A stretch of 22,024 bases of DNA. Source: a virus. The notes under the pieces were generated by a model. That model saw nothing but the letters and a program-made list of their open reading frames with translations. It had not been told where the DNA came from and made no database searches. Positions 1,129 to 18,187 of the stretch are shown in pieces (positions within the stretch are counted from its first letter, which is position 1; the number at the start of each line of letters is the position of its first letter). The position numbers were made by a program, and so were the translations under genes. The stretch lies in the IMG/VR virus record IMGVR_UViG_3300020198_000118, positions 1 to 22,024 of that record; one strand, given 5' to 3'.

Positions 1129-1560
1129 CTATTCCTCTGAAGGAAGGATCCGATAGCGGACGTAATCCTCCCCACGCGGTCCGTACTTCCTCATGAAAGA
1201 CTCGAACTCGAAGCCGAGGTGTTCGGCCCATCGACGGCCGACAGCAAAGTTCGCGACGACGTCGGCCTGGATCCGGTGATAGCCACCGTCGCGAACGATG
1301 CTGCCGAAGATCGTCTTCACCGCACGATGAACCTCGCGCCGATGTTGTCGACCGAGTTCGGTCACGACCGCCCAAGCTTCACCCATCCCGGGCCAGAAGG
1401 TCGCGACGCCGGCGCACGCCGCGACCTTGCCGTCGATCAGGCCGGTGAACGCAGGCCCGCGGTCGTGGTAGATGACGCCGGCTTCGTACGCGTCGCCGAT
1501 GACGTGCGGGCTGTTGATCGCCTCGACGTAGTGATTCGGCTCGAACGGAACGACGATCAC
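1129..1560 (-). CDS. GNAT-like virion-module protein (gp13-type)
   Basis: This 143-residue protein has a GNAT acetyltransferase-like fold signature: a central FTGLIDGKVAACAGVATFWPG strand region, the YHRIQADVVANF strand, then AERRWAEHLGF-type text (here VGRRWAEHLGFEFES) and MRKYGPRGEDYVRY at the C-terminus. This fits the GNAT-like proteins encoded between nozzle and internal proteins in podoviruses, the slot of T7 gp13. The likely start is GTG at 1560, whose GTGA overlaps the nozzle gene stop. The degenerate acetyl-CoA loop suggests a structural more than catalytic role, but that is inference. Confidence 0.7.
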   Translation of the reverse strand: MIVVPFEPNHYVEAINSPHVIGDAYEAGVIYHDRGPAFTGLIDGKVAACAGVATFWPGMGEAWAVVTELGRQHRREVHRAVKTIFGSIVRDGGYHRIQADVVANFAVGRRWAEHLGFEFESFMRKYGPRGEDYVRYRILPSEE

Positions 1561-3737: not shown

Positions 3738-3738
3738 C

Positions 3739-4305
3739 TTACCGCCTCACGTCGATAAGCGTGGTGTTCTTGACCTGCTGCGGCGTCCCCTCCATCCCGT
3801 CCATCGCACGGGCGCGGGCGAGCTTGTACTCCTTCAGCTTCATCATGGCGTCCGCGACCTTGACGTCCTGCATGATCGGGATCGCCATCTCTGCCGCGAG
3901 CGCCGCCTCGAGCGCCTGCACGAAGAGGGCGTCGTACTGCGCTGGGTCATCGATCAGAGCGATGTAGCGGATCTTCGCTGTGGTCTCGTCGGTGAGGAGC
4001 TCGCGCCCCTCGATGACGAACTCTGCCTCCTCGTCACTCATGGCGAGCACGCGGAGGCAGTACGGATCCGCCGGCAGCTGGTACGCGTAGTCGTAGCCGA
4101 ATGCCGGCGCATCAGAGAGACGCGCCAGTGAGCTCCGACGGATCGCGAAGTTCCACGGGTGCTCTCGGAGGAGTGCATCCCGAGTTGGCTCGTAGAGACG
4201 GTTCGCGAGGCGCGCCGGATTACTGTCGTCCTCAAGCGACGTGATCGACGTCGAGCCAATCTTCAGCAGGGCATTCGAGCAGATTTCGACGACGGACAGA
4301 GCCAT
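3739..4305 (-). CDS. Tail tubular protein A / adaptor (gp11-like)
   Basis: This 188-residue protein has the typical adaptor N-terminus: VEICSNALLKIGSTSITSLE, then NRLYEPTRDALLREHPWNFA. The YQLPADPYCLRVL strand and a C-terminal four-helix region (ALEAALAAEMAIPIMQDVKV) follow. Podovirus adaptors (T7 gp11) form the ring between portal and nozzle. The length matches T7 gp11 (196 aa). The start has CGAGGTAG upstream. It is immediately followed by the nozzle gene, the usual order. Confidence 0.92.
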   Translation of the reverse strand: MALSVVEICSNALLKIGSTSITSLEDDSNPARLANRLYEPTRDALLREHPWNFAIRRSSLARLSDAPAFGYDYAYQLPADPYCLRVLAMSDEEAEFVIEGRELLTDETTAKIRYIALIDDPAQYDALFVQALEAALAAEMAIPIMQDVKVADAMMKLKEYKLARARAMDGMEGTPQQVKNTTLIDVRR

Positions 4306-4332
4306 GCGCTACCTCGTGGGTGAGGAGAGAAA

Positions 4333-4360
4333 CGGCCGGGAGCCGTTGAGCCCCCGGCCG
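4333..4360 (-). terminator. Hairpin downstream of decoration gene (attenuator/terminator)
   Basis: Positions 4333-4343 pair with 4350-4360. In the minus-strand transcript all 11 pairs form, one of them G-U, whereas on the plus strand the same place is an A-C mismatch; this favours function in minus-strand RNA. The hairpin begins 10 nt after the decoration gene stop and is followed by TTTCTCTCC, a weak U-tract. It may partially terminate transcription before the tail genes. Confidence 0.5.
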
Positions 4361-4369
4361 TAGGCGGGA

Positions 4370-4849
4370 TCAGTTGCCGGACACGTACGCGACGTAGCCG
4401 TCGATCGTGTCGTTGTCCTCGATGTTGCCGGTGTCGATCATCGCGTAGACGATGACGCCGTCGCGGCTGTCGAGCGTCTCCTTGCCGCCGGCCGGCAGCG
4501 GGAACGCCTTGTCGAGCGCACCGCCGCCCGCGTCCTCGTTGTCCGCGAAGCGGTTGTCGTCTTCGGCGACCGCGGTGCCGTCCGGGTTCGTGAACGCACG
4601 CGTGCCGATGTGGATGTCGGCGTTGGCGGCGAATGCGGACGTCACGAGACGCGAGAGATCGGGGAGCACGACGATGCGCCCGGGCGGCAGGCGCACCAGG
4701 TTCACCTCGCCGATGCCCGCACCCGCGGCGTGCGTGTACGAGAACGGCGCGTAGCGGACCGGCTTGTCGTGAAACGGTGCCGCCTTCTTGTTGCCGTCGA
4801 CCTGGTTCGTGTACTCGGTCGACTTCGTGGGAGATCCGGTGAAGGCCAT
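4370..4849 (-). CDS. Putative capsid decoration / head protein
   Basis: This 159-residue protein lies directly downstream of the major capsid gene and before the adaptor, where many phages encode a decoration or head-fibre protein. It is Gly/Asp/Asn-rich and probably mostly beta-structured (NLVRLPPGRIVVLPDLSRLV; ADIHIGTRAFTN; GVIVYAMIDTGNIEDNDTID). There is no transmembrane segment and no enzymatic motif. The ribosome site AGAGGAAG is strong, consistent with high expression. The gene is bracketed by two hairpins. Function is inferred from position only. Confidence 0.6.
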   Translation of the reverse strand: MAFTGSPTKSTEYTNQVDGNKKAAPFHDKPVRYAPFSYTHAAGAGIGEVNLVRLPPGRIVVLPDLSRLVTSAFAANADIHIGTRAFTNPDGTAVAEDDNRFADNEDAGGGALDKAFPLPAGGKETLDSRDGVIVYAMIDTGNIEDNDTIDGYVAYVSGN

Positions 4850-4878
4850 GAGTTCTTCCTCTGTGTGAGTGGTGAAGA

Positions 4879-4902
4879 GCGGTGGCGGGCGGCCGCCACC
4901 GC
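4879..4902 (-). terminator. Perfect 10-bp hairpin after the capsid gene
   Basis: GCGGTGGCGG and CCGCCACCGC (10 bp, perfect) enclose a 4-nt loop between the capsid stop and the decoration gene start. The tail on the minus strand is TCTTCACC, so there is no real U-run. In T7 the terminator T-phi also follows the capsid gene; a similar attenuating or RNA-stabilising role is possible here. That is analogy, not proof. Confidence 0.45.
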
Positions 4903-4903
4903 A

Positions 4904-4928
4904 TTACGTCAGCGAGACGTTGTCAGGA
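4904..4928 (-). promoter_or_regulatory. Recurrent TTGACAACGTCTCG element, copy A
   Basis: On the minus strand this reads CCTGACAACGTCTCGCTGAC, starting right after the capsid stop codon. It matches copy B (15228-15252) at 22 of 25 positions. No convincing -10 box follows, so if functional it is more likely a protein-binding site than a promoter. Confidence 0.5.
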
Positions 4929-5813
4929 TCAGTAGGCGACCGACTCGTCGACCCCGACCTCGACGACCTTCTCGTCCTCGACGCGGGTCGCGCCGAGCGT
5001 CGTCTCGCAGTAGACCTGCGTCGCGTACGACAGGTCGTCGCGCTCCGACACCTTCGTCGAGATGTCGCCGTTCACCGCGAGACCGATCGCGTTCTTCAGC
5101 CACGCGATACAGAAGCGGGTGTTGCCGGTCTTCGCCAAGCGCGTGGTGCGCTTGAACTTAAAGCCCATGTACTCGTCGATCTTGCCCTCGGCGAGCGCCT
5201 TCACCGCGTTGTAGTCGGCGCTCTTCACCTCGGTGGAGTTCATCAGCTGGAGCAGCGACTTCGGCGACGCTGCGAAGACCACCTGCATGTCGGGGTCCTC
5301 GACGTCGATGTCGTTGTTCCAGAAGATCTCCTTGGTGGAGAGCAGCTTCGCGATCGTCAGCCCCGTGGTGCCGACGGCGACCTTCTGCCCGGACGGCAGC
5401 GCCACCGCGGAGGCGGCGAGGTCGGCGTCCACACTGTACGCGTCGCCGCGCGCAGCCTCGAGGACGATGGTGTCGATGCGCCGGCCGAGCGCCCACGCGC
5501 CCAGCTGAGCGTAGTCGCTCTCCGGGCTCGTGAGCATCCGCTCGACGTCGTCGGAGTCGATGAGCGACGCCCAGTGCCAGTCCTGCGGCGTGACACGCCG
5601 ACGGCTGTGCTCCTGGTCGATGTTCGGCGTCGGCGCGAACCGCGACGTCTTCTGCACGGCCTCCGTCGCGGCGAGGCGGTCGAAGTACGCGGCGTTGCCC
5701 TTCAGCGGCTTCTCGCGCACCATGCCGCGGAACTTGCTGCCCTTCTGCTGGGCGAGCAGGATGACGTTGTCGTTGAACTGCCTGATGTGTGCTTTGTCGA
5801 TCGTGACGGCCAT
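4929..5813 (-). CDS. Major capsid protein
   Basis: This 294-residue protein matches the HK97-fold capsid family used by many short-tailed phages. Cues are QFNDNVILLAQQKGSKFRGM near the N-terminus, RVTPQDWHWASLIDSDDVER (residues ~73-92), the helix around ALGRRIDTIVLEAA, and the P-domain-like YNAVKALAEGKIDEYMGFKF. The TRFCIAWLKNAIGLAVNGDI stretch and the final E-loop/A-domain strand (CETTLGATRVEDEKVVEV) also fit. The ribosome site GGAAGGAAATCC precedes ATG. The gene follows the scaffold gene, separated by 144 nt that contain a hairpin. It forms the icosahedral head shell. Confidence 0.9.
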   Translation of the reverse strand: MAVTIDKAHIRQFNDNVILLAQQKGSKFRGMVREKPLKGNAAYFDRLAATEAVQKTSRFAPTPNIDQEHSRRRVTPQDWHWASLIDSDDVERMLTSPESDYAQLGAWALGRRIDTIVLEAARGDAYSVDADLAASAVALPSGQKVAVGTTGLTIAKLLSTKEIFWNNDIDVEDPDMQVVFAASPKSLLQLMNSTEVKSADYNAVKALAEGKIDEYMGFKFKRTTRLAKTGNTRFCIAWLKNAIGLAVNGDISTKVSERDDLSYATQVYCETTLGATRVEDEKVVEVGVDESVAY

Positions 5814-5906
5814 TGGATTTCCTTCCGATGGGATTGAGCGATGCGGGTCGTCACGGAGGGTTGCCCGCCCAATGCGGACCCTGCCTTGTCGCTACGGGGA
5901 CCATCC

Positions 5907-5927
5907 CGCCGGCGCTTGCCGCCGGCG
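5907..5927 (-). other. Hairpin in the scaffold-capsid gap
   Basis: CGCCGGCG is repeated as an inverted repeat around a 5-nt loop. It lies in the 144-nt gap 5814-5957, the only sizeable gap in the head operon. No U-tract follows, and I see no sigma70 promoter in this gap. It may be an RNA processing or stability element for the capsid message. Confidence 0.4.
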
Positions 5928-5957
5928 CACCAGGACTCTCGCGAGTTCCCCTGGCCT

Positions 5958-6830
5958 TTACTTCTCTGGGTAGGCGATCTTGTAGAGGTTGCGGACGTAC
6001 TTCACGCGCTCGTCGTGACCGGGCTTGCCGGCATGACGACCGTGATACAGATCGTTCGGATCGTTCTGGATCCGCGCGATCTCCGCCTTCGCGTCCTCCG
6101 CCCCCGGCACGCCGGGGACATCACCTGCGATCGAGCCTTCCTCGGCGAGCAGCGCGCCGACGCGGGCGAACATCTTCACCAGTACTGGGTCGTTGCCCAG
6201 CCCCGTCGTCTCGAGCTTCTCGAGGAGCTCTTTGCCGCCGACCTCGAGCACGGCGCGCCGTGCAAGGGTGACGTTCTTCTTGAAGCCGGCCGGACCCCAC
6301 TCCTTCTGGAGCTCGTCCTCGACCTGCTTCCGACTCTGGGCCAGTTCTGCCTGGCCCTCGCCGAGCGTGCGCTTGTAGTAGTCCAGCACGCCGGCCATCT
6401 GCTTCTGCGTGAGCCCGAGCTTGTGAGCCTCGAGCGCGAAGCCCTTCGCCGCCTCGGCGGGAACGACGTCGTCACCCGTGATCTCGTACTTGTCGGGCGA
6501 TTCCGGCGGCCCTTCGATCAGCCCGTGCTTGACGAGCTTGTCGCGGACCGCGGCGATCTCTTCGGGCTTCGCGTCCTTACCGGGAAGCTTGACGCTCTGC
6601 CCGGCATAGCGCTGGCCCTCGAGGTAGCCCTTCGCCAGCAGGGGACCGGCCTCGTTCCAGTCCTTGCCCTTGATCGTCTCGAAGACCTTCTCGCCGCGGA
6701 GACTCTCGTCGAGACCCGCGCGCCAGTCGGTTACCTCGGCATTCCGATTGCCATCGTTCGCGGGCGTCTCCGTCGCCGGTGTTTCGACGACTTCCTCGTT
6801 CTCCGCTCCGATGATCGTGCCTGTGGTCAT
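5958..6830 (-). CDS. Capsid scaffolding protein
   Basis: This 290-residue acidic protein has a disordered, Glu/Thr/Pro-rich N-terminus. The scaffold signature DWRAGLDESLRGEKVFETIK followed by GYLEGQRYAGQSVKLPGKD comes next, and then long charged helices (LTQKQMAGVLDYYKRTLGEG) and a basic C-terminal end. Scaffold proteins organise procapsid assembly and are later lost. Position between the portal group and the capsid gene fits. The start overlaps the Bbp19-like stop (ATGA) with GAGGAGG upstream. Confidence 0.88.
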   Translation of the reverse strand: MTTGTIIGAENEEVVETPATETPANDGNRNAEVTDWRAGLDESLRGEKVFETIKGKDWNEAGPLLAKGYLEGQRYAGQSVKLPGKDAKPEEIAAVRDKLVKHGLIEGPPESPDKYEITGDDVVPAEAAKGFALEAHKLGLTQKQMAGVLDYYKRTLGEGQAELAQSRKQVEDELQKEWGPAGFKKNVTLARRAVLEVGGKELLEKLETTGLGNDPVLVKMFARVGALLAEEGSIAGDVPGVPGAEDAKAEIARIQNDPNDLYHGRHAGKPGHDERVKYVRNLYKIAYPEK

Positions 6831-7126
6831 TCAGCCTCCTCGTCGCTCTGAGTGATCGCGTCACGTTGCCTGGGTGCGGCGTCGGTGATCGCGACAGTCT
6901 GCTTGTCCTGCACTTCTTCGGCGAGCTCGAGCAGGCCGAGAATGCGCAGGTATACGGCGCGCTCGCCTTCCTTCGCCGCCGTCGCGTACGGATCGCCCTC
7001 GGTGTAGGACCGGCGACGGCCGTAGATCTGCTCCAGTTCCTGTAGAACCTTGCGACCAGGAGGCGTCGAGAACGTGTCGCGGTACGCGTGCGCCTGCTCG
7101 ACCTTGTCGTTGAAGATCGCTCTCAT
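6827..7126 (-). CDS. Bbp19-like small head-module protein
   Basis: This 99-residue protein contains YRDTFSTPPGRKVLQELEQI, which I recognise from the Bbp19 family named after Bordetella phage BPP-1. That family is usually encoded between portal and scaffold genes. Its biochemical role is not known to me. The rest is helical (GERAVYLRILGLLELAEEVQ) with an acidic tail. Both ends overlap neighbours by 4 bp, with the ribosome site GGGAGG, so translation is coupled to portal and scaffold. Confidence 0.78.
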   Translation of the reverse strand: MRAIFNDKVEQAHAYRDTFSTPPGRKVLQELEQIYGRRRSYTEGDPYATAAKEGERAVYLRILGLLELAEEVQDKQTVAITDAAPRQRDAITQSDEEAE

Positions 7127-8829
7127 GCGCCTCCCGGGACCGCGCCGGCGAGCGCGGCCATCGGACCGCCAGCGGCCACGCTCTCAGGCGTCACCAGGCC
7201 TTGCGGCGCAACGGCCTTCACGAGCGGCCCAGTAGCGCCGGCGGCTTTCATCTGCTCGATCTGCATCATCTGTTGCTTCTCGGCGTCGGCCTTCTTCTGA
7301 CGCTCCGCACGGGTCTTCTCGACGACACGCGGATCCTTCTTGAATCGAGACGCGAGCCCGTTGGCATCGCCGATGCCGCGCGCCATCTCGTCGAGGTCGT
7401 AGTTGTCGAGGACCGTCGGATCGGTCTGCGCGAGCGGCACCAGCATCTCGAGCGTCCGCTGGATCGCGGCGACATCGCTCGCCTTCGCCGCCCTCGCGAG
7501 CGGCCCTTCGTACTCGACGTCGAGTTCGGCCATCCCTCCGAGCATCTCGGCCTGTTCCATCAGGATCGGCGGCAGAGGCAGCAGTACGCCGGCTCTCGCC
7601 ATCATGCTGAGGCATCGATGAATCAGCGGCGCGAGGAGCTCGGACTCGAGACGCCCGAGCGTCGGACCGAGCAGTCGCTGCATGAGCTCGTAGCGACGCT
7701 CGACTTCCGTCGCCGTCATCTGCGGGCCTTCTTGCAGCTGCAGCTGGTCGTAGAAGAAGATCTGCTGAATCGATCGGCGCAGATCCTCGGACTTGATCTG
7801 GTCGACGTCGTACTTCGCACCCGTGGTGATCGGCTTGATCGAGCCGGCCTCACGCACCGTGTTCAGCGCCGCCGGCGTCCACCGGACGGATCCGATCACG
7901 CCGTCGTCGACCACTTCCATCGGCGGGCGCAGGTCGATCGCCCACGCTTCGAGGCCCATCTCCTTCGCCTTGTTCAGTGTGCGGATGTCTGGCAGAGCCG
8001 TGTGGCCGGGGCCGTAGCCGTACTCTCCGGTGCTCGAGGTCTTCGTCCACCGCGGCACCATGTACGGCAGTTCGTAGTACCCACCCTCCTCGAGGAGGCT
8101 CTTGTCCTCCATCGAGACGTAGCAGGACGCGAACTTCCTCGACTTCGGCGTCTTGCTGTACTGCGCGAGCACGCGCGGGTACACCGCGTGGAGGATCTTG
8201 ACCATCTGGTCGGGATCCTTCTCGGCGATCTGCGCGATCTTCGGGCCGACGTTCTTACCCCACTTCTGCACGGCCGCGCCGGCGGTGAGCTCGAACTCGC
8301 GCATCACCGTGTCGACGCGCCCCTCGGCGTTCTCGGCGATGACATACTCACCGACCGCGAGCGCCTTTAACTGGAACCCGTTGAAGAACGGGTCGTCGCC
8401 TTCCTTCTCCTCGACGAAGAGACAGCCGATGCCGAAGGTGCCGAGGTCGAGGTAGACCTCCTGCATCTCGGCCGCGAAGTTCGATTGCCGCAGCCCGAGT
8501 GAGAGACGGTCGCGCGTGTCGTCGAGCCAGACCCCGACGTTGCGGTCGAGGTTCAGCATCTGGTCGCGCATCTTCAACCGGAACCACATCAGCTGACCCG
8601 GCGTGAGCGAGCCCTGCATCGACGACGCGAGGAGCTCCGCCGAGCGCGGCGCGGTCGAGTCGTACTTCTCGGTGTCAAGCTTCGTCCCCGGCGTCCGGCG
8701 CACGGAGATGTTCGACTTGCGCGGCACGATGTAGTCGGCGAGCTCTTGCCACTGCGGCCGGCAGAGATCCTGCTTCTGCTTCAGCCGCGCGTGACGCTTC
8801 AGCAGCGTGACAGCCCCGGTCTCACTCAC
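7123..8829 (-). CDS. Portal (head-tail connector) protein, T7 gp8-like
   Basis: This 568-residue protein starts like T7-type connectors: a helix with KQKQDLCRPQWQELADYIVP, then DSTAPRSAELLASSMQGSLT and PGQLMWFRLKMRD, the hallmark of the head-tail connector family. Later come GYGPGHTALPDIRTLNKAKE (stem/crown entry) and TATEVERRYELMQRLLGPTL. The length is close to T7 gp8 (536 aa). It forms the dodecameric DNA channel at one capsid vertex. The start is GTG at 8829, overlapping the upstream stop by 8 nt; the end overlaps the Bbp19-like gene. Confidence 0.95.
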   Translation of the reverse strand: MSETGAVTLLKRHARLKQKQDLCRPQWQELADYIVPRKSNISVRRTPGTKLDTEKYDSTAPRSAELLASSMQGSLTPGQLMWFRLKMRDQMLNLDRNVGVWLDDTRDRLSLGLRQSNFAAEMQEVYLDLGTFGIGCLFVEEKEGDDPFFNGFQLKALAVGEYVIAENAEGRVDTVMREFELTAGAAVQKWGKNVGPKIAQIAEKDPDQMVKILHAVYPRVLAQYSKTPKSRKFASCYVSMEDKSLLEEGGYYELPYMVPRWTKTSSTGEYGYGPGHTALPDIRTLNKAKEMGLEAWAIDLRPPMEVVDDGVIGSVRWTPAALNTVREAGSIKPITTGAKYDVDQIKSEDLRRSIQQIFFYDQLQLQEGPQMTATEVERRYELMQRLLGPTLGRLESELLAPLIHRCLSMMARAGVLLPLPPILMEQAEMLGGMAELDVEYEGPLARAAKASDVAAIQRTLEMLVPLAQTDPTVLDNYDLDEMARGIGDANGLASRFKKDPRVVEKTRAERQKKADAEKQQMMQIEQMKAAGATGPLVKAVAPQGLVTPESVAAGGPMAALAGAVPGGA

Positions 8830-9523
8830 CGAGCAGCGTCTTCTTCTGCGTCGGGACTTCGTCGAGCAGTCCCGCCGGCCCGCCGAGGTTGAGGATCGTG
8901 CGGCGACGCGTCACCTTGCGGGACTCGTACGCCTTGTCCTCATCCTCCTTCTTCTTGCGGGCCTTCTCGGCTTCCTCGCGCTCGACGCGCGCCTTCTCTT
9001 CGGCGACTCGCTTCTCTTCCGCGATGCGGTTCTGCTCGTCGATCGCCGCCTTCGAGTTCAGGAGTTCCTTACGGTAGGCGTCGATCGTCACGTCGTTCTT
9101 CATGAGCCGCGTCGAGTCGGCCACCAGGAGGTCGCTCTCGATCTCCTTGCCGAAGATGTCGCGGTACGTCCCGCGCACCGCAGCCCGCGCCTCGCCTTCA
9201 CCGAGCGGTGGCAGCGACGCCTGCGCGGCTTTGGTCTTCCTCCCCTCTCGCTGCGCCGTCGAGAGCCGCGAGTACTCGATCGCCTCGGGCGTGTTGCCGA
9301 CACGATTGCGGAAGTCCTGCGTCTTCAACCCGCCGGTGAGCTCGGTCGCATCGCGCTCGAGCTCCTGCTCGTTGGGGTCGCGCCCGTAGAACTCCTGGTA
9401 GACGCCGCGCGTTACGTTGTACGCCTCCGACCTCGAGATCGCAGGCGGCGGCGGGGGCGCAGGCGGCGGGGGCGGCGGCGAAGGCGGAGGCAGTGGTGCA
9501 GGAGCTCGACGCTTGGATCCCAT
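8822..9523 (-). CDS. Proline-rich, coiled-coil head-module protein
   Basis: This 233-residue protein has a polyproline N-terminus (about residues 8-27). Two similar modules follow (RGVYQEFYGRDPNEQELERD, about 39-58, and RGTYRDIFGKEIESDLLVAD, about 117-136), recalling short repeat modules such as DUF4214. A charged coiled coil (about 160-205) leads to the C-terminal end RRTILNLGGPAGLLDEVPTQ followed by KKTLLGE. C-termini ending in TLLG are common in proteins encoded beside podovirus portals, but I do not know their function. The ribosome site is GAGGGA. The polyproline tract comes from a G/C-rich low-complexity stretch near 9440-9490. Confidence 0.7.
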   Translation of the reverse strand: MGSKRRAPAPLPPPSPPPPPPAPPPPPAISRSEAYNVTRGVYQEFYGRDPNEQELERDATELTGGLKTQDFRNRVGNTPEAIEYSRLSTAQREGRKTKAAQASLPPLGEGEARAAVRGTYRDIFGKEIESDLLVADSTRLMKNDVTIDAYRKELLNSKAAIDEQNRIAEEKRVAEEKARVEREEAEKARKKKEDEDKAYESRKVTRRRTILNLGGPAGLLDEVPTQKKTLLGE

Positions 9524-9526
9524 GAG

Positions 9527-10939
9527 CTATTCCCTCGCGAACACGTTGAAGTCGGATTCGTATGTCTGCTGCCGGCCGCGGTCGCGACCGAGCGGATCGA
9601 ACTCAGTGATGGCCCGCACCTGGCGGCGCTGCTCCGGCTCGATGCGCCGGAACCCCATCGCCCCGATGCGGAACGCGTCCGCGCCGTGCGAAGACCAGTC
9701 GTGCTTCGGGTCTTTCTTGAACCCCTTGCGGTCCTCGTCCCACTCCTTGTGGTAGTGGCGGAGCGCACTGAGTCCGCGGTCGCACTTCTTCTCGTCGAAC
9801 CAGCAGAGCGGGAGGATCTGGCGTACGGCGTTGATGCCGTCGTTCACCAGATGTTTCTTCACGATCGTGAAGCGCACGCCGAGCTTGCGAGCCGTCACGG
9901 CTCTCTGTTCGCCGGACGTGAACTCGTGGACGGCGAGGTCGTGCGGCCCGTAGTGGCGGCCGTACGTGTAGGGCAGCGCCTTCAGTTCCTTCGCGTAGAA
10001 GCCGAGCCCCTCGCCGTGATGCTCGAGGTAATCGATGAAGCGGAGCTCGCGGCCGACCTGCTGCATGAACCAGATCGCCGTCGAGTCGCCGTACCCGAGG
10101 TCCCACCAGGTATGGACTTCGATCGACGGCTCCCACGGCACGATCCCGATGCGCGGAGGCTTCGCCTCATCGAGGAGCTTGAACTGCGAGGTGTAGTACG
10201 CGCCGACGATCCCACCGTGGAAGGAGCAGTAGTACTCCTGCTGGATCGTCTCTTCGTCCGCGCCAGAGGCGATCTCTTCGTCGATGATCTCTTGCGAGAC
10301 GACCGGCGTACCGTCGGGGCGGAACGTGTCGCGCACCGTGAGGAGAGAGACGAACCACGTCGCGCGGTCCTTGTTCCTCGAGTAGAGCGTCCACCCGTGG
10401 TTCTTGCCGCGAGGCGTGTACACGAAGACCGCCCAGCCGCCGTTCTCCGCGAGGATCGGGCGCGTGAGCTCCCAGGCCTGCGGATCCTGCAGCGAGTACT
10501 CGGAGAAGACGCAGCCGACGGGGTTCGTGCCGACGATCTTGTCGAAGTCGTCGGTGCCGATCAGCTGGATGATGGACCCCGGCTTCGTCGAGTCGTCGGG
10601 ATGACGGAACGTGATCTTCATCTCCGTCTCGTTCTTGTTGTAGATGAGCTCAGCCGGGATGTGATCGAGGAACCGGAAGCCGTCCCGGTCCATGCCGTCC
10701 CAGATGACCTTCTTCGCCTGCGCGTACGTCGGGAAGAAGTAGTAGTACGTGCCGACGCGCAGGTTGATCGCGGCGTGGATCATCCAGTTCCACGTCGTCT
10801 TGTCTTTGCCGGAGCGACGGTGCCAGACGAGAATCGCGCGCTTACAGCCCTCGCTCATCGCATCGAAGAACGGCAGTTGGTACGAGCGCGGGTCGAACTG
10901 GTAGGGAACCTCGATGGACTTCGTGACCGTTGCGGTCAT
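9527..10939 (-). CDS. terL: Terminase large subunit
   Basis: This 470-residue protein is the ATP-driven DNA packaging motor and headful/cos nuclease. The Walker A motif is WHRRSGKDKT (residues 39-48). The Walker B strand with catalytic Glu is CVFSEYS (Glu147), and the coupling motif region is VYTPRGKNHGW (173-183). The RNase H-like nuclease acids are plausible at Asp280 (WWDLGYGDSTAIW), Asp303 (FIDYLE), Asp334 and Asp421 (HGADAFR). The length is normal. It acts on the portal at the capsid vertex. It sits upstream of the portal gene; the start is ATG 10939 with only a modest ribosome site. Confidence 0.96.
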   Translation of the reverse strand: MTATVTKSIEVPYQFDPRSYQLPFFDAMSEGCKRAILVWHRRSGKDKTTWNWMIHAAINLRVGTYYYFFPTYAQAKKVIWDGMDRDGFRFLDHIPAELIYNKNETEMKITFRHPDDSTKPGSIIQLIGTDDFDKIVGTNPVGCVFSEYSLQDPQAWELTRPILAENGGWAVFVYTPRGKNHGWTLYSRNKDRATWFVSLLTVRDTFRPDGTPVVSQEIIDEEIASGADEETIQQEYYCSFHGGIVGAYYTSQFKLLDEAKPPRIGIVPWEPSIEVHTWWDLGYGDSTAIWFMQQVGRELRFIDYLEHHGEGLGFYAKELKALPYTYGRHYGPHDLAVHEFTSGEQRAVTARKLGVRFTIVKKHLVNDGINAVRQILPLCWFDEKKCDRGLSALRHYHKEWDEDRKGFKKDPKHDWSSHGADAFRIGAMGFRRIEPEQRRQVRAITEFDPLGRDRGRQQTYESDFNVFARE

Positions 10940-10996
10940 CGCATCTCGTCGAAGTTCGACGGCACCGGCAAGTAGTTCGTCTGCGCGGCGACGGTG

Positions 10997-11191
10997 TTAC
11001 AGGGACGCGGGGACGGGCTTGAACTCGACCGGGAAGCACTCACTCAGGAGGACCGGTTGTGCGTCCTTGGCGATCCGAGCAGCGAGCTCAGCCTTGGCCG
11101 TGCGGCACTCCTGCTCGGTCTGGAACTCTCCGGTGGAGGTGCCGAGCGGAGACAGGGACAGGGCGATCCAGAGGACGACGGATTCGAGCAT
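10997..11191 (-). CDS. Small secreted Cys-pair protein
   Basis: This 64-residue protein begins with a hydrophobic segment (MLESVVLWIALSLSPLGTS), a probable signal peptide or anchor. The small domain has two cysteines 23 residues apart, within EQECRTAKAEL and LLSECFPVEF. Such a pair would form a disulfide outside the cytoplasm. A very strong ribosome site (AGGAGGATCTCCC before ATG) supports it. It closely resembles the gene at 12064-12270. Function is unknown; a role in envelope modification or lysis is possible but unproven. Confidence 0.65.
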   Translation of the reverse strand: MLESVVLWIALSLSPLGTSTGEFQTEQECRTAKAELAARIAKDAQPVLLSECFPVEFKPVPASL

Positions 11192-11258
11192 GGGAGATCC
11201 TCCTAGAGGCGCAGGCTGGGGGATTCGGATTTTTGGTGCGCCCGTCGAATCGGTAGGG

Positions 11259-11282
11259 AACGCGCCTCACGGCCGGCGCGTT
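11259..11282. other. Inverted repeat in the terS-downstream gap
   Basis: AACGCGCC and GGCGCGTT (8 bp, perfect) enclose 8 nt. It lies in the 165-nt gap 11192-11356, which holds no gene that I can see. A T-run follows only on the plus strand, against the direction of the genes, so a terminator reading is weak. Confidence 0.3.
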
Positions 11283-11340
11283 TTGGGGGTGCCGGGGGTC
11301 GGAAAGTCTAGAAAATCAAGGTCGCCGCGTACTTAGGCCT

Positions 11341-11364
11341 GTTCGTGACCGCCCGGTCACGAAC
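11341..11364. other. 24-bp perfect inverted repeat at the end of the putative terS
   Basis: GTTCGTGACCG, 2 nt, then CGGTCACGAAC: 11-bp perfect arms. It spans the stop codon of the putative small terminase gene. No U-tract follows on the minus strand. The inner TGACCG/CGGTCA arms resemble the twin TGACCGGTCA palindromes at 18110-18136, so a protein-binding site is as plausible as an RNA hairpin. Confidence 0.5.
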
Positions 11365-11791
11365 GCTTCAGCCAGGGAGCGATGGCGACGTTGACCTGCA
11401 CCTTGCCGGCCTGCTGCGGTGCGGAACGAGAGGGCTTTACACCAAGGATCTCGCCAGCTTCCCGAGCAGCTGAGAGCCTAGTTCGGTGGTCGATGTCGAC
11501 GTACTCCTCGACCTCGGACGGAGCTCCGCGGCCCTGCGACACCACGAGGCGCTGCACGACCTTCGCGTCCATTCCCTCGTCGAGCACTCGGCCGATCTTC
11601 CTGAAGATCTCAGGAGTTAGACCGCAAGCCTCAAGGGCTCGCTGTCGGTAGTCCTCGAGAGACACAGGGAATGCTTCGCCTTTACTTTCAACTACTTGCA
11701 CCGTGACGTGACTATCTGGCACGGCAGGCGCGGTCGGCACGAGCTCGACGGCGGCAGATGTCTCCTTTTTACCACTCTTCCTGTGAGCCAT
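11357..11791 (-). CDS. Putative terminase small subunit
   Basis: This 144-residue protein is encoded just upstream of the TerL gene. It has a low-complexity N-terminus and a helical middle (YRQRALEACGLTPEIFRKIG). The segment VDIDHRTRLSAAREAGEILG resembles the terminal oligomerisation helix seen in many small terminases, where the protein is screened as D...R..AA....LG. The tail ends in VNVAIAPWLKRS. Small terminases bind the packaging site and load TerL. The placement supports the call but a DNA-binding helix-turn-helix is not obvious. The alternative is an uncharacterised packaging-module protein. Confidence 0.5.
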   Translation of the reverse strand: MAHRKSGKKETSAAVELVPTAPAVPDSHVTVQVVESKGEAFPVSLEDYRQRALEACGLTPEIFRKIGRVLDEGMDAKVVQRLVVSQGRGAPSEVEEYVDIDHRTRLSAAREAGEILGVKPSRSAPQQAGKVQVNVAIAPWLKRS

Positions 11792-11800
11792 CGCTGATGC

Positions 11801-12100
11801 CTATCTGAGCCATTGGGACTTGCCGGGGCCACGTAGACGCTGCGATCGCACCAGCCAGATCTCTCGAGGGCTCAGGATCCTCGTTCGACACTTCGTCTTT
11901 CCCATCCGATACTTGCGGTACGTCGGCGGGAACATATCCTTGCGCTTCGAGAGATGGGCAGACAGCTGCTTCGGGGTACAGGGCACGAGCATGGCCGCGA
12001 TCACCAGATCAATCGGTGGCTCTAGGCCAATATCGATGAGGTCTTGAAGCTTGACCTCGCCGGCTACCGAGCCGCAGCTGGTGCAGAGATGGAGCGGCAC
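11801..12100 (-). CDS. Small Cys-motif, probable DNA-binding protein
   Basis: This 99-residue protein starts at GTG 12100 with AAGGA upstream and overlaps the preceding gene by 37 nt. The N-terminus has a CTSCG pair, and further cysteines occur at LVPCTPKQ and KTKCRTR. The part TPKQLSAHLSKRKDMFPPTY followed by RILSPREIWLVRSQRL looks like a helical DNA- or RNA-binding fold. I do not recognise the family with certainty. It precedes the putative small terminase by 9 nt, so it belongs to the packaging or late-control operon. Confidence 0.55.
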   Translation of the reverse strand: MPLHLCTSCGSVAGEVKLQDLIDIGLEPPIDLVIAAMLVPCTPKQLSAHLSKRKDMFPPTYRKYRMGKTKCRTRILSPREIWLVRSQRLRGPGKSQWLR

Positions 12101-12270
12101 TCAGTGAGATCCTTCGTGTCGACGCCCGCCAGCATCAACTGCACTTTCACCAGGCGTCTCAATGAGTTACAGGCCTCGAGCGTCTTCGCCTCGGCCGTGA
12201 TCTGCACGGCCGTGATCTGCACTCCACCGAAGGCCGCCAGCGTGAGCATGAACGCATACACGATCTCCAC
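12064..12270 (-). CDS. Small membrane/secreted Cys-pair protein
   Basis: The frame is open from ATG 12312. I prefer the GTG at 12270 because GGAGG lies 5 nt upstream and the N-terminus then becomes VEIVYAFMLTLAAFGGVQIT, a good signal or anchor segment (68 aa). The exported part has KTLEACNSLRRL and DLTECRSI, two cysteines 24 residues apart. That spacing and the (T/S)EC context match the protein at 10997-11191, so the two may be paralogues. A perfect tandem 15-bp repeat inside the gene duplicates five residues. Function is unknown. Confidence 0.5.
   Translation of the reverse strand: MEIVYAFMLTLAAFGGVQITAVQITAEAKTLEACNSLRRLVKVQLMLAGVDTKDLTECRSISAPAAAR
12193..12222 (-). repeat. Perfect tandem 15-bp duplication
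   Basis: GGCCGTGATCTGCAC occurs twice back to back, in frame, inside the small membrane protein gene, giving a VQITAVQITA sequence just after its hydrophobic segment. It is probably a slippage duplication. Confidence 0.8.
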
Positions 12271-12563
12271 GCAGGCCTCCAGTTGGTACTGCCGCCCTGC
12301 GGCGGGCACCATCCGCTGAGCGACCAGCCGGCATACGCCATGACGCTGGCACGTTTACGCATCGCGGTATAGGGCTGCAGTCCGGCCGCAGGGCAACAGG
12401 TCGGAACCGCCGTATCGGCACGCAGGGTCCGATCGCCAGCGGTCAGCAGGTGGGACACGAAGGGCCAGGCGGATCTCACGACCCGACTGGCCCTTAGCTA
12501 CAGGTGGGGGATGTCCTCGAGGCACGCTTTACGCCTCGTCCCTGTTCTCCACCGTACCTGCGT
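12271..12563 (-). other. Structured leader without a clear gene
   Basis: About 290 nt separate the promoter at 12564-12593 from the first gene I accept. Short open frames here have poor starts. The stretch contains AAGGGCCAG/CTGGCCCTT (12460-12468 with 12487-12495, 9 bp perfect, 18-nt loop) and CGAGGC/GCCTCG (12518-12523 with 12533-12538). A long structured 5' leader in front of the packaging genes could host attenuation or antitermination; no known class is recognised. Confidence 0.4.
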
Positions 12564-12593
12564 ATGATACACCAGTCATAGACACGTTGTCAA
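12564..12593 (-). promoter_or_regulatory. Sigma70-type promoter (leftward)
   Basis: On the minus strand: -35 TTGACA (12593-12588), 18-nt spacer, -10 TATCAT (12569-12564). The -35 box lies inside copy E of the recurrent TTGACAACGT element (12571-12595) and inside a palindrome, so the promoter is probably repressible. It would drive the packaging and possibly late genes to the left. Confidence 0.6.
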
Positions 12594-12600
12594 GTGTCTA
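12579..12600. promoter_or_regulatory. Palindromic operator over the -35 box
   Basis: TAGACAC, 8 nt, GTGTCTA: perfect 7-bp arms centred on the -35 TTGACA. It starts at the TAG stop codon of the upstream 57-codon gene. The symmetry suggests a dimeric repressor site. Confidence 0.5.
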
Positions 12601-12771
12601 GTTGACCGTCGTGTAAACCCGCGTCATCACGATCTCATAGAGACGTCTGTCGATGAGCTCGTGCCGCACATCCTCGAGCGGCACCACCGGGAGCCGCAGC
12701 GTCCACCGCACGATCCTCGGCACGATCGCAGGGGCACGGTACCTGCCGCCGTCGAGCATTCCCCAATCCAT
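12598..12771 (-). CDS. Small hypothetical protein (57 aa)
   Basis: An ATG at 12771 lies 2 nt after the stop of the RHH gene and opens a 57-codon frame ending TAG at 12598. The product starts MDWGMLDGGRYRAPAIVPRI and ends LYEIVMTRVYTTVN. It has a patterned beta-rich look (IVRWTLRLPVVPLEDVRHEL) with GC-rich third positions. No family is recognised. Tight coupling to the RHH gene suggests a shared operon. Confidence 0.6.
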   Translation of the reverse strand: MDWGMLDGGRYRAPAIVPRIVRWTLRLPVVPLEDVRHELIDRRLYEIVMTRVYTTVN

Positions 12772-12773
12772 CG

Positions 12774-13268
12774 TCAGGAAAGCCTCTGGCTGCCACCAGG
12801 TTCGACGATCCTGATGGGGGTCGCTATCTGTACCTTGCCCGTTGTCAAAGTCTCAGGGACAGGCGTCCTGGGGTCCATGCACCAGGGACAGCTTTCCGCC
12901 GGAGCCTGCTCGGCATGGTCGACATGCCTCTCGTAGAGCTCGAGCCGTTGAGCATCCCGTTTCGCCAGGATTGATCGGGCCTCGTCCATCGTGACGACCG
13001 CGGGAGCGGCCCCCCTGATCTCTTCCCCTGATGCGGGGCGACGACGCGCGCCGGAGGCGGGCGCGGAGGACGCCCCCTCGTTCGTTTTCTTTCTCTCTTT
13101 CAAGGGACGGTTCTCGCGGAGTTCCTTAGCGAGCTCTTTCGAGCGCGCCTTGAAGCGGTAGGCGAGCGACTCTCTCACCTGGTGAGACATCGAACTTCCG
13201 TCAATGTTGGCGAGAGCTTCCAGCTTCCTGTGATGATCCTCAGTCAGATGCACGACGAGCTTCTTCAT
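12774..13268 (-). CDS. Ribbon-helix-helix transcriptional regulator
   Basis: The frame is open from 13367, but the ribosome site GGAGG just before ATG 13268 and the domain start favour 13268 (164 aa). Residues 1-50 are a clear RHH (Arc/MetJ/CopG-type) fold: the strand KKLVVHLTED, then HHRKLEALANIDGSSMSHQV and RESLAYRFKARSKELAKELR. RHH dimers insert a beta-ribbon into the major groove. A long basic/Ala-Pro linker leads to a C-terminal part with ESCPWCMDP, a possible zinc knuckle. Directly upstream are stacked palindromes and a promoter, so autoregulation is likely. A degenerate copy (H) of the recurrent element lies inside its 3' coding end. Confidence 0.8.
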   Translation of the reverse strand: MKKLVVHLTEDHHRKLEALANIDGSSMSHQVRESLAYRFKARSKELAKELRENRPLKERKKTNEGASSAPASGARRRPASGEEIRGAAPAVVTMDEARSILAKRDAQRLELYERHVDHAEQAPAESCPWCMDPRTPVPETLTTGKVQIATPIRIVEPGGSQRLS

Positions 13269-13291
13269 GAGCCTCCGCGAAGCGAAAGTGA

Positions 13292-13324
13292 GTGGGCCAT
13301 TCGTGGGCCATTGGTGGGCCATTG
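13292..13324. repeat. Three tandem 11-bp repeats upstream of the RHH gene
   Basis: GTGGGCCATT(C/G) occurs three times head to tail between the promoter and the RHH start codon. A further CTGGGCCAC lies at about 13359-13367. Iterons of this kind are typical of cooperative RHH operator binding. Confidence 0.7.
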
Positions 13325-13358
13325 GTGACATCGCTGGAGATGTCACAACGATATCGTT
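13325..13358. promoter_or_regulatory. Two adjacent perfect palindromes (candidate operators)
   Basis: GTGACATC-N6-GATGTCAC (13325-13346, perfect 8-bp arms) is followed immediately by AACGATATCGTT (13347-13358, perfect 12-bp palindrome). Both lie in the 5' leader of the RHH gene, downstream of the -10 box. Confidence 0.65.
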
Positions 13359-13376
13359 CTGGGCCACTTGTGGACT

Positions 13377-13406
13377 ACTCTACAACAGGCGAGTAGCAAG
13401 TGTCAA
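13377..13406 (-). promoter_or_regulatory. Promoter of the RHH gene
   Basis: On the minus strand: TTGACA (13406-13401), 18 nt, TAGAGT (13382-13377). The operators and repeats lie between this promoter and the RHH start, giving a leader of about 100 nt. Confidence 0.5.
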
Positions 13407-13411
13407 GAGGC

Positions 13412-13687
13412 CTACTTCTTGCTCTTGCCCGCCGTGTCGTCCCTGACCGCCCAGAGGACGTACGTATCGCCCCGTCGCTGCGTGCGCAGGAGGAGCCCGC
13501 GGCGGATCAGCTGCTGGCCGACGGCCGACCGCATGGCGTGCGCGTCGATGCCCTCAGCATCGATCTCGATCGCCTTGCCGTTCTCATAGGCTGTGAGGAC
13601 AGCCTTCGTGATATCCAGCCAGTGACCGCGCTCCTGCTTGCCGCCCTCTGGCATGGCGACCTGCCGGATCCTCGCCTTCGCCACCAT
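13412..13687 (-). CDS. Hypothetical protein, possible DNA-binding (91 aa)
   Basis: ATG 13687 is preceded by the strong ribosome site GGGAGGATCTCC. The product has GHWLDITKAVLTAYENGKAI then AMRSAVGQQLIRRGLLLRTQ and RRGDTYVLWAVRDD, a helix-strand pattern that could be a winged-helix-like domain with a C-terminal hairpin. The Lys-rich end is basic. I do not recognise a named family. TTGACAATG at 13738-13730 overlaps the stop of the upstream gene and could be a -35 box, but no good -10 follows. Confidence 0.6.
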   Translation of the reverse strand: MVAKARIRQVAMPEGGKQERGHWLDITKAVLTAYENGKAIEIDAEGIDAHAMRSAVGQQLIRRGLLLRTQRRGDTYVLWAVRDDTAGKSKK

Positions 13688-13732
13688 GGAGATCCTCCCG
13701 AACCTCAGAGTCTCATGGTCAAAGTATCATTG

Positions 13733-13936
13733 TCAACTTCCGCACGCCAGTAGCCGCCGCGCCCGCCCGAGCTCGCCGCCGGTCAGGGTGCGCTCGAGTT
13801 CCGTCACCCTGGTGCGTGTGAGTTTCAGCATCCGCTCGTAGTCCGTGAAGTCCGCGGGGTCGCCGGCCGCGAAGCTGTCGCGCGCCCGCACCGCCGCCAC
13901 GTAGTCGTCGACCTTCTTGGCGCTCGAGGTCGCCAT
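13733..13936 (-). CDS. Hypothetical alpha-helical protein (67 aa)
   Basis: I chose ATG 13936 because GGGAGGTGAGG lies just upstream; the frame itself is open further. The protein is helical and charged: KKVDDYVAAVRARDSFAAGD and DYERMLKLTRTRVTELERTL. No motif is recognised. It lies 19 nt downstream of the zinc mini-protein gene and is probably co-transcribed. Confidence 0.6.
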   Translation of the reverse strand: MATSSAKKVDDYVAAVRARDSFAAGDPADFTDYERMLKLTRTRVTELERTLTGGELGRARRLLACGS

Positions 13937-13955
13937 GTCCCTCACCTCCCGGTGG

Positions 13956-14063
13956 TTAGCCGCCCTCACCACCACGCTCGTTGTAGATGGCGGCAATGAG
14001 CTCCTCGACGATCTTCCTCTCGCAGCCGCTGCACTCGTCCATGTGGCGCAGGATCTCGTCCAT
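13956..14063 (-). CDS. 35-residue HxxxCxxC mini-protein (zf-HC2/anti-sigma-like)
   Basis: ATG 14063 overlaps the previous stop (TGATG) with GGGAGGAG upstream. The whole product is a helix with EILRHMDECSGCERKIVEEL. The H-x3-C-x2-C spacing (His7, Cys11, Cys14) is that of the zinc-binding anti-sigma (ZAS, zf-HC2) domain. At 35 residues it is about half such a domain. It may bind zinc and possibly a sigma factor or another regulator; this is inference from spacing alone. Confidence 0.6.
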   Translation of the reverse strand: MDEILRHMDECSGCERKIVEELIAAIYNERGGEGG

Positions 14064-14269
14064 CAGCACTCCTCCCTGTCGAGAATGTCGATCACGTCGT
14101 CCAGCACCATGCTCACGCGCACCATCGCTGGATGATCGGAGCGCGGATCCTCGTCGTACACGTAGTCGATGAGCCCCGCGGCCTCGTGGTCGGCCCACTC
14201 CATCCGCCGGCGCTCGAGGTAGCGGTTGGGGGCGAAGTAGCGGAAGTCGGGCGAGACTGGGATGACCAT
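14063..14269 (-). CDS. Hypothetical protein (68 aa)
   Basis: ATG 14269 overlaps the upstream stop (TGATG) and has GGAAGAG before it. The product starts MVIPVSPDFRYFAPNRYLER and ends VLDDVIDILDREEC; it is acidic at the C-terminus and probably small and globular. No family is recognised. The overlaps at both ends make it a credible operon member. Confidence 0.6.
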   Translation of the reverse strand: MVIPVSPDFRYFAPNRYLERRRMEWADHEAAGLIDYVYDEDPRSDHPAMVRVSMVLDDVIDILDREEC

Positions 14270-14400
14270 CACTGAAACTCTTCCGGGCAGACCTCTCGGA
14301 AGAAGCGCTCTTCGCACGCCACGGTATGCGGCTGCGGTCCGCTGTTGTGGCCTAGAGCGCAGACGTGGCACGAGCAACCGCAGCACTTATGGACTTCCAT
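14269..14400 (-). CDS. Cys-rich mini-protein (43 aa)
   Basis: The ATG overlaps the stop of the serine recombinase gene (TGATG at 14398-14402), and the frame ends exactly at the next gene start. The product starts MEVHKCCGCSCHVCALGHNS and carries further Cys residues in VACEERFFREVC. Seven cysteines and several histidines in 43 residues suggest metal binding. No family is recognised. Overlap at both ends supports it being real. Confidence 0.55.
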   Translation of the reverse strand: MEVHKCCGCSCHVCALGHNSGPQPHTVACEERFFREVCPEEFQ

Positions 14401-15768: not shown

Positions 15769-15788
15769 CACTCCTACCCTCGACCTAC
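15769..15788 (+). repeat. Direct repeat flanking attP, left copy (candidate integrase arm site)
   Basis: CACTCCTACCCTCGACCTAC. The same sequence with one inserted T occurs at 15979-15999, on the other side of the tRNA-like core and in the same orientation. Confidence 0.65.
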
Positions 15789-15885
15789 AGTCGGTCCGGG
15801 ACCTCCGATGGTTTACTGGGATTTTCTGGGACAGTGGGCCATCGGCCGTCGAGGCCTGAAACCGGACCTAACTACGCGGTGGATT

Positions 15886-15932
15886 TGGTGAGCCGTCTGG
15901 GACTCGAACCCAGGACCCCCTGATTAAAAGTC
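15886..15932 (-). other. attP: attP core: 3' half of tRNA-Lys(UUU)
   Basis: The minus strand reads as the 3' part of a tRNA from the anticodon loop (CTTTTAA, anticodon UUU) through variable loop and T-arm (CTGGG-TTCGAGT-CCCAG) to ACGGCTCACCA. The 5' half (acceptor strand, D-arm) is missing, and the bases upstream do not complete the anticodon stem, so it is not a functional tRNA gene. Temperate phages that integrate into tRNA genes carry exactly such a 3' segment to restore the host tRNA. The integrase gene is about 300 bp away. Confidence 0.85.
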
Positions 15933-15945
15933 CTAAGGCTCCGAT

Positions 15946-15962
15946 GTTCACGTATCGTGAAC
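15946..15962. repeat. Inverted repeat beside the attP core
   Basis: GTTCACG-TAT-CGTGAAC, perfect 7-bp arms. It lies 14 bp from the tRNA-like core. TGAACAC recurs at 15958 and 15975. It may bind integrase, excisionase or a host factor. Confidence 0.5.
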
Positions 15963-15978
15963 ACGCGGACTTACTGAA

Positions 15979-16225: not shown

Positions 16226-17296
16226 TCAGTCCTCCTCGAGCAGCGAGACCGCGCGCTGTGCGGCGCGCAGGTTCGCCGGCACGTACTCACGGGTCATGGT
16301 CAACGACGAGTGGCCCAGCAGATCCTGCACCGTCGCCGGATCCGCTCCTCTGGTGAAGAGCTCACGCGCGAACGTCACACGGAGATCGTGTCGCCAGAGC
16401 TTCGGCAGCCCGAGCTCCTCCCGCGCGTGCGCCCATCGTCGGCGCAGCATGGTGTCGCTGGTCTCGGTGAACACGCGTCCCGCGGTCTTCGGCCCGAGCT
16501 CCTGCAGGATGTCGAACGCCCGCTTGTTGAACGGGATCGTGCGGTCCTTGCCCTTCGAGTAGTACGTGAACACGCGCGCGACGAAGTCGATCCGCTCCCA
16601 CTCGAGATCGAGCACGACCTGTTTCCTGACGCCGAGGTTGAAGAGGAGTTCGGCCTTCAGGCGCTCACGGCGGTAGGTGCCGTCTGGCCCTTCGATCGCG
16701 GCGTACAGCTGCTCACGCGACGGCTTCGAGATCGCCGTGCGCGTGCGCTTCGGCTCCGGGTAGCGCGTGACCAGATCGCGGACGGCGGGGTTGTGGTCGA
16801 TGAGCGGTGGCCGCTGCTTCATGCACCACGAGAAGAACGCGGAGAGGTACGCGAGATCGCGGTTGACCGTCGCGCCGCTGATGATGCGGCCGTGCGCTCC
16901 GGCCACTTTACACTTCTTCTTGGCGCACGCGTGACACCAGCGCTGCGCCTTGCGCCAGGCTTTGTACTCCTCGACGTCGCGCGAGGTGATGGACGTGAGC
17001 GCGCGGTCGCCGAGGTGCCGGGAGATCAGCTTCCACGAGTGCTGCTCGCTCCACCGATCGGCGCGGTGGCTCGGGATCACGACCTCGGCGAGGTAGCGCG
17101 TGGCCGCTGACCCGAAGAGCGTCTGGCGGATCCGCGTGCGCTCGCCGGTCGCGCCGACTTCCTGCTTCTTCTTCCACAGAGCCTCGAGGGCAGCCCGCTG
17201 GTTGTCGAAGCCAGCCTGCTCGTACAGGCGACCGCGGTGCTTGAACCGATACTTGAACGAGCCGCGGTGGAAGTAGACGTTCTGGTGCTTCTTCAT
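16226..17296 (-). CDS. int: Tyrosine integrase
   Basis: This 356-residue phage integrase has all catalytic residues visible: Arg224 (LGVRKQVVLDLEW), Lys248 or Lys250 (YSKGKDRTIPF), His303 and Arg306 (WRHDLRVTFA), His329 (LLGHSSLTMT) and nucleophile Tyr338 (TREYV). The N-terminal arm-binding part includes VYFHRGSFKYRFKHRGR, and the core-binding helices lie around 60-180. Unusual is a Cys-rich insert, CHACAKKKC (121-129), within the core-binding domain, possibly zinc-binding. The start overlaps the upstream HTH gene (ATGA). It should recombine the tRNA-Lys attP core with attB. Confidence 0.95.
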   Translation of the reverse strand: MKKHQNVYFHRGSFKYRFKHRGRLYEQAGFDNQRAALEALWKKKQEVGATGERTRIRQTLFGSAATRYLAEVVIPSHRADRWSEQHSWKLISRHLGDRALTSITSRDVEEYKAWRKAQRWCHACAKKKCKVAGAHGRIISGATVNRDLAYLSAFFSWCMKQRPPLIDHNPAVRDLVTRYPEPKRTRTAISKPSREQLYAAIEGPDGTYRRERLKAELLFNLGVRKQVVLDLEWERIDFVARVFTYYSKGKDRTIPFNKRAFDILQELGPKTAGRVFTETSDTMLRRRWAHAREELGLPKLWRHDLRVTFARELFTRGADPATVQDLLGHSSLTMTREYVPANLRAAQRAVSLLEED

Positions 17297-17849: not shown

Positions 17850-18113
17850 ATGAGCGAAGTTTTCCGCACTGAGAATCTCCTCCTTGAGACCGTGTCACTC
17901 GCCGAGGCCGCAAAGATCTACGGCACCACGCCGAAGAATCTGCGCAACAAGCTCGCGCGCAACGAGAACGACTTCGGCGCGATCAAGGTGCTGGGCCGCT
18001 GGCGCGTGTACAAGGTGGCCGTCCAAGCAGCCTTGGTGCCAAAGTCGCCCAGCGGAGAAGTCTTCGTTTTTGTTCGCGGGATCCGCGCGAAGCTCGTGCC
18101 GATCCCCGATTGA
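17850..18113 (+). CDS. Excisionase-like HTH protein
   Basis: This 87-residue protein has a MerR/excisionase-type winged HTH: VSLAEAAKIYGTTPKNLRNK followed by LGRWRVYKVAVQ, the usual place of the wing in HTH_17/Xis proteins. The C-terminal part (GEVFVFVRGIRAKLVPIP) is beta-like. Small proteins of this type next to integrase genes are recombination directionality factors or early regulators. It diverges from int. Its stop codon lies inside the first of two perfect palindromes. A direct Xis role is inferred. Confidence 0.65.
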   Translation: MSEVFRTENLLLETVSLAEAAKIYGTTPKNLRNKLARNENDFGAIKVLGRWRVYKVAVQAALVPKSPSGEVFVFVRGIRAKLVPIPD

Positions 18114-18136
18114 CCGGTCAAGCTCTGACCGGTCAA
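18110..18136. promoter_or_regulatory. Twin TGACCGGTCA palindromes / 11-bp hairpin
   Basis: TTGACCGGTCAA (18110-18121) and TGACCGGTCA (18126-18135) are both perfect palindromes, centres 15 bp apart. Together they also form an 11-bp stem with a 5-nt loop. The tail is TTAACC, not a U-run. Tandem palindromes fit a dimeric repressor operator; the hairpin fits an RNA stop signal. About 85 further bp to 18220 hold no gene, only copy G of the recurrent element and a weak TTGACT that could be a -35. Confidence 0.6.
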
Positions 18137-18187
18137 TTAACCACTGCACTCTTTTCCTTTTGACTCTTGGTGAGTGAAATGAGATGC

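Follow-up and report, generated by a model that had tools for sequence, protein, structure and literature searches.

A candidate operator array in the leader of a ribbon-helix-helix-like gene of a temperate phage fragment

RelB, a ribbon-helix-helix (RHH) protein, binds cooperatively to two adjacent 12-bp half-sites, the spacing of which is essential, i.e. insertion of bases abolishes repression (PMC2812701). RHH centromere-binding proteins are repressors and bind to iterons overlapping promoters, their own included (PMC5016525). The sites of recombination directionality factors (RDFs) are direct repeats one helical turn apart, and Apl acts both at att sites and at promoters (PMC7498355). Here, we describe the leader of a gene for an RHH-like protein in the virus record IMGVR_UViG_3300020198_000118, the 22,024 bases of which (the window) are a fragment of a temperate phage. 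Between a predicted promoter and the start codon, this leader contains a tandem array of short symmetric iterons, a separate fourth copy and two palindromes. From the sequence, we give about even weight to the proposal that the leader is a compound operator array for autoregulation of the RHH operon.

The initial annotation had named a promoter, both palindromes, three tandem 11-bp repeats and a fourth GGGCCA in this leader, and every one of these elements is present on the minus strand, as listed here with the genes that follow them:

13401-13406, minus strand: -35 hexamer TTGACA
13377-13382, minus strand: -10 hexamer TAGAGT
13359-13372: fourth, upstream, imperfect iteron CTGGGCCACTTGTG (79% over 14 nt), at the predicted +1
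13347-13358: perfect 12-bp palindrome AACGATATCGTT
13325-13346: inverted repeat GTGACATC-GCTGGA-GATGTCAC, a candidate dimer operator
13292-13327: three tandem 11-bp iterons with the core TGGGCCA
13272-13276, minus strand: GGAGG, resembling a ribosome-binding site as read from the sequence, 3 nt ahead of the ATG
12774-13268, minus strand: RHH-like gene, 164 residues, with a C-terminal HVDH...CPWC motif
12598-12771, minus strand: open reading frame (ORF) of 57 residues, beginning 2 nt past the stop codon of the RHH-like gene

The two promoter hexamers are separated by an 18-bp spacer and match the consensus at 10 of 12 positions; the pair is one of two such sites in 3 kb, compared with 0.2 in shuffled sequences. 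Judging from the spacing to the -10 hexamer, +1 is predicted at about 13369-13371. Read leftward, the order is TTGACA-18-TAGAGT, TGGCCCA at about +1, AACGATATCGTT, GTGACATC-N6-GATGTCAC, three 11-bp repeats of TGGCCCA, GGAGG and ATG. The elements, which are centred at about 13296, 13307, 13318, 13335.5, 13352.5 and 13363, tile the leader with hardly a gap from the predicted +1 (about 13370) to 13292, i.e. from about +1 to +80. On the plus strand, GTGGGCCATT starts at 13292, 13303 and 13314 (period 11), giving TGGGCCA cores at 13293, 13304 and 13315, and the fourth copy has an exact TGGGCCA core at 13360-13366. The core is itself 2-fold symmetric (TGG-S-CCA).

To estimate chance expectations, the 139-bp region was simulated with an order-1 model. 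Three exact copies of a 7-mer, evenly spaced, arose with P 0.0001; moreover, paired TGGSCCA at the leader spacing occurred twice in the window and not once in 100 shuffles. Because the 11-bp period is not divisible by 3 and the units encode different peptides, the repeat is a feature of the DNA and not of a protein. In total, the tandem TGGGCCA array clearly exceeds chance, and the observed arrangement is real, probably functional and of a sort that is already known.

In the proposed mechanism, RHH dimers would occupy the four symmetric TGGSCCA units in a cooperative manner; three of these units lie 11 bp (one helical turn) apart and would be on one face of the helix, and the fourth overlaps the predicted +1. 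Once bound, the protein would obstruct the start of the promoter and hinder elongation just downstream, and abundant RHH protein would in this way shut off its own transcript. The two palindromes may be further RHH sites or the site of a second regulator. This proposal is supported by where the array and the palindromes lie, exactly in the interval from a good promoter to the RHH-like start codon, by an array that far exceeds chance without being a coding repeat, and by the ParD-like N terminus and modelled helix pattern of the protein, which fit an RHH. It also agrees with the known binding of autoregulating RHH proteins, e.g. RelB, to neighbouring symmetric half-sites spaced by about one turn, and with the promoter iterons of the RHH centromere-binding proteins. 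Moreover, the locus has repeated symmetric sites at the RHH-like gene's own promoter, as expected of an autoregulated RHH operator. Autoregulation by an array of RHH dimers is most likely, being the most economical and best-supported explanation. The RHH operon precedes the terminase and structural genes and is in line with them. If binding were confirmed, a defined operator could be assigned to an orphan RHH-like protein from an uncultured, temperate, podovirus-like phage, and a candidate switch would be placed ahead of the genes for packaging and structure; RHH repressors already illustrate the principle.

With the RHH operators of the RelB/relO and P22 Arc type, the locus shares a small protein of RHH-like type, symmetric sites that adjoin at a spacing of about one turn and the proposed autoregulation. 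It differs from them in that three contiguous units and a fourth all lie at or past the predicted +1, and in that the protein has 164 residues with an extra C-terminal region, while a toxin partner was not seen. Specifically, no toxin gene of a ParDE system was seen beside the RHH-like gene; the 57-residue ORF downstream, which is probably in the same operon, has no family and no match in Pfam or PADLOC. Plasmid R1 ParR-parC and pSM19035 omega are similar in that short iterons stand in tandem at the promoter region of the RHH protein itself (PMC5016525); by contrast, there are just three to four iterons here, and no ParA or ParM of a type Ib or II partition system was found among the neighbouring ORFs scanned in this window, itself a fragment. 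The RDF sites of phage 186 Apl and of the lambda Xis type resemble the array in being direct repeats spaced 10-11 bp, and one unit is found at attP here too; however, only one attP unit is convincing, and the units themselves are symmetric.

Residues 1-51 of the 164-residue protein resemble ParD (PF09386; E=0.0007, 20.4 bits), and in a single-sequence model a short N-terminal stretch is followed by helices at residues 10-21 and 29-52 (predicted local distance difference test score 71), which is the RHH helix order. On this sequence and model evidence, the protein is likely to be an RHH protein, although the assignment is weak. Its HVDH...CPWC C terminus could bind zinc.

Several observations weigh against autoregulation by this protein. 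The RHH assignment sits below the curated Pfam cut-off of 27.3 bits, Foldseek with the protein model gave no match to a solved structure, and no RHH relative was detected by phmmer among PDB entries. Overlap with the -35 and -10 elements is common in known RHH operators, whereas all sites in this leader are at or past +1. The distance from the third to the fourth copy is 45 bp, which is not a whole multiple of 11. Finally, no independent relative turned up in the collections scanned: the sole homologous locus is in the sister contig IMGVR_UViG_3300020200_000310, which is 99.7-99.9% identical over window positions 1554-14400 and has the same array.

The sister contig was likewise the only source of a relative of the RHH-like protein among viral contigs, GTDB genomes, GenBank phages, PLSDB plasmids, 20 related viral records and 369 genomes of one class; weak matches in the latter set (E 0.002-0.004) fell mostly outside the RHH domain, and some had stops. 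Other relatives by terminase had neither the RHH gene nor the array within the stretches covered, and blastn with the leader DNA against phages and plasmids gave no match. Triple TGGGCCA-N4 arrays were present in 12 viral contigs, one of which is the sister, compared with 10 for a reversed-sequence control; thus, the array sequence is not a widespread element. The flanking DNA in the array-bearing viral contigs other than the sister showed no resemblance to the window.

The initial annotation had proposed several operators, perhaps for two different regulators. The position, symmetry and one-turn spacing of the sites fit operators for the RHH operon; the one pointer to two regulators is that the array and the palindromes differ in sequence. 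Neither palindrome has a second copy elsewhere in the window, and control by two different regulators is possible. The ORF p91 (13412-13687) was considered as a winged-helix second regulator and rejected, as its model is mixed alpha/beta with no convincing match in the PDB; its only relative is in the sister contig.

Alternatively, both palindromes may have arisen by chance, leaving the direct array as the functional element. We consider this doubtful, although with a fair share of the weight; it is compatible with RHH autoregulation, and its probability does not add to those of the other explanations. In the simulations, an inverted repeat (arms of 8 or more, loop of 8 or less) had P 0.016, and a perfect palindrome of at least 12 bp had P 0.031, so that each palindrome alone is just mildly unusual. 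Across the window, there are 11 perfect 12-bp palindromes where 12.5 are expected, i.e. no enrichment, and therefore AACGATATCGTT by itself is unremarkable; similarly, GTGACATC-N6-GATGTCAC was found in 26 stretches of viral contigs, mostly inside ORFs. However, the two palindromes occurred together in only 0.003 of simulations, and their case is strengthened because they tile edge to edge with one another and the array. That the inverted repeats act in RNA, as an attenuator or in translation control, appears very unlikely to us: the elements lie inside the predicted transcript, in which a stem of about 12 bp forms, but the leader folds no better than shuffles (z = -1.2), has no Rfam family, and gets no strong fold from the direct array, which is its strongest feature.

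The array might instead consist of sites for an RDF-type protein, e.g. the excisionase-like HTH_17 protein encoded at 17850-18113, which would act at attP and repress the RHH/late operon. This explanation draws on RDF sites being one-turn direct repeats and on the dual action of Apl. The 3' half of a tRNA-Lys(UUU)-like sequence including CCA (15888-15935, minus strand), where no full tRNA was found, lies beside the tyrosine integrase gene (16226-17296) and is read as attP. The best iteron match outside the leader is in this region, adjoining two TGGGA repeats:

15834-15845, plus strand: single iteron-like unit GTGGGCCATCGG (11/12), a possible remote site

Such a match is expected about 0.003 times per 300 bp and 0.1 times per whole window. 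Its weight-matrix score is just slightly above that of matches inside genes (14.0 compared with 13.3), and for that reason we treat the unit as a lead and not as evidence; it weakly favours a wider role of the array. The helix-turn-helix matches of the 17850-18113 protein are weak (HTH_17, E=0.001; PADLOC mad1, E=6e-4), and the promoter region of the integrase-linked helix-turn-helix genes contains no iteron match. Moreover, RDFs need several sites whereas attP has one good unit, not a series of one-turn direct repeats, and the symmetry of each leader unit suits a dimer better than head-to-tail monomers. We therefore consider control by an RDF-type protein unlikely. A combined scheme, in which a single RHH protein governs its own (late) operon through the array and also binds the attP unit, thereby coupling the lytic/structural programme to excision, has only a slender chance of being correct. 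If true, it would be an Apl-like dual role in an RHH fold; among the papers retrieved on RHH with excisionase, none was on such a dual role, judging by title or abstract. We assign a low probability also to the explanation that the array is a site for DNA transactions, i.e. a small terminase packaging site or replication/partition iterons, that lies in the leader by chance. In the nearest terminase relative (L027; 54% identity), 4.5 perfect 13-bp repeats stand just before the small terminase gene, and short tandem intergenic arrays adjoin replication-like (primase/helicase-like) or terminase-like genes in several unrelated viral contigs inspected by eye. However, several ORFs separate the array here from terS, which is about 1.5 kb downstream, the window has no recognised gene for replication or partition, the L027 repeat differs in sequence from that in the leader, and the reversed control array was found in nearly as many contigs (10 compared with 12).

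The repeats of L027 (2487-2545; 4.5 perfect copies of TTGTCACCCCTGG) are a candidate packaging site in that record. A likeness of its unit (TGTCACCnnTGG) to the window leader was at chance level by a rough estimate and was not used. Around attP, direct repeats CACTCCTACCC(T)TCGACCTAC at 15769 and 15979 are possible arm-type sites, and a palindrome TGTTCACGTATCGTGAACA at 15945-15963 also flanks attP. At the end of the HTH_17 gene, a 12-bp perfect inverted repeat ATTGACCGGTCA-AGCTC-TGACCGGTCAAT (18109-18137) is perhaps a terminator or an operator.

The window encodes a head-tail connector (PF12236, E=2e-121), a tyrosine integrase, a serine recombinase, a terminase and a major head protein; the RHH-like gene is the first of a leftward run, in which small ORFs come before the terminases and structural genes. 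An N-terminally extended product of this gene is possible because its frame stays open further upstream, as far as a GTG at 13367 (13269-13367, minus strand), 2-4 nt past the predicted +1, from which leaderless translation of a 197-residue form is possible. No relatives of the resolvase were found. The final stretch of the small terminase gene, about 67 bp (11383-11449), is present twice in tandem in the sister contig. The end of the sister contig coincides exactly with that of the serine recombinase gene (window position 14400); the module may vary between the two, or the assembly breaks there.
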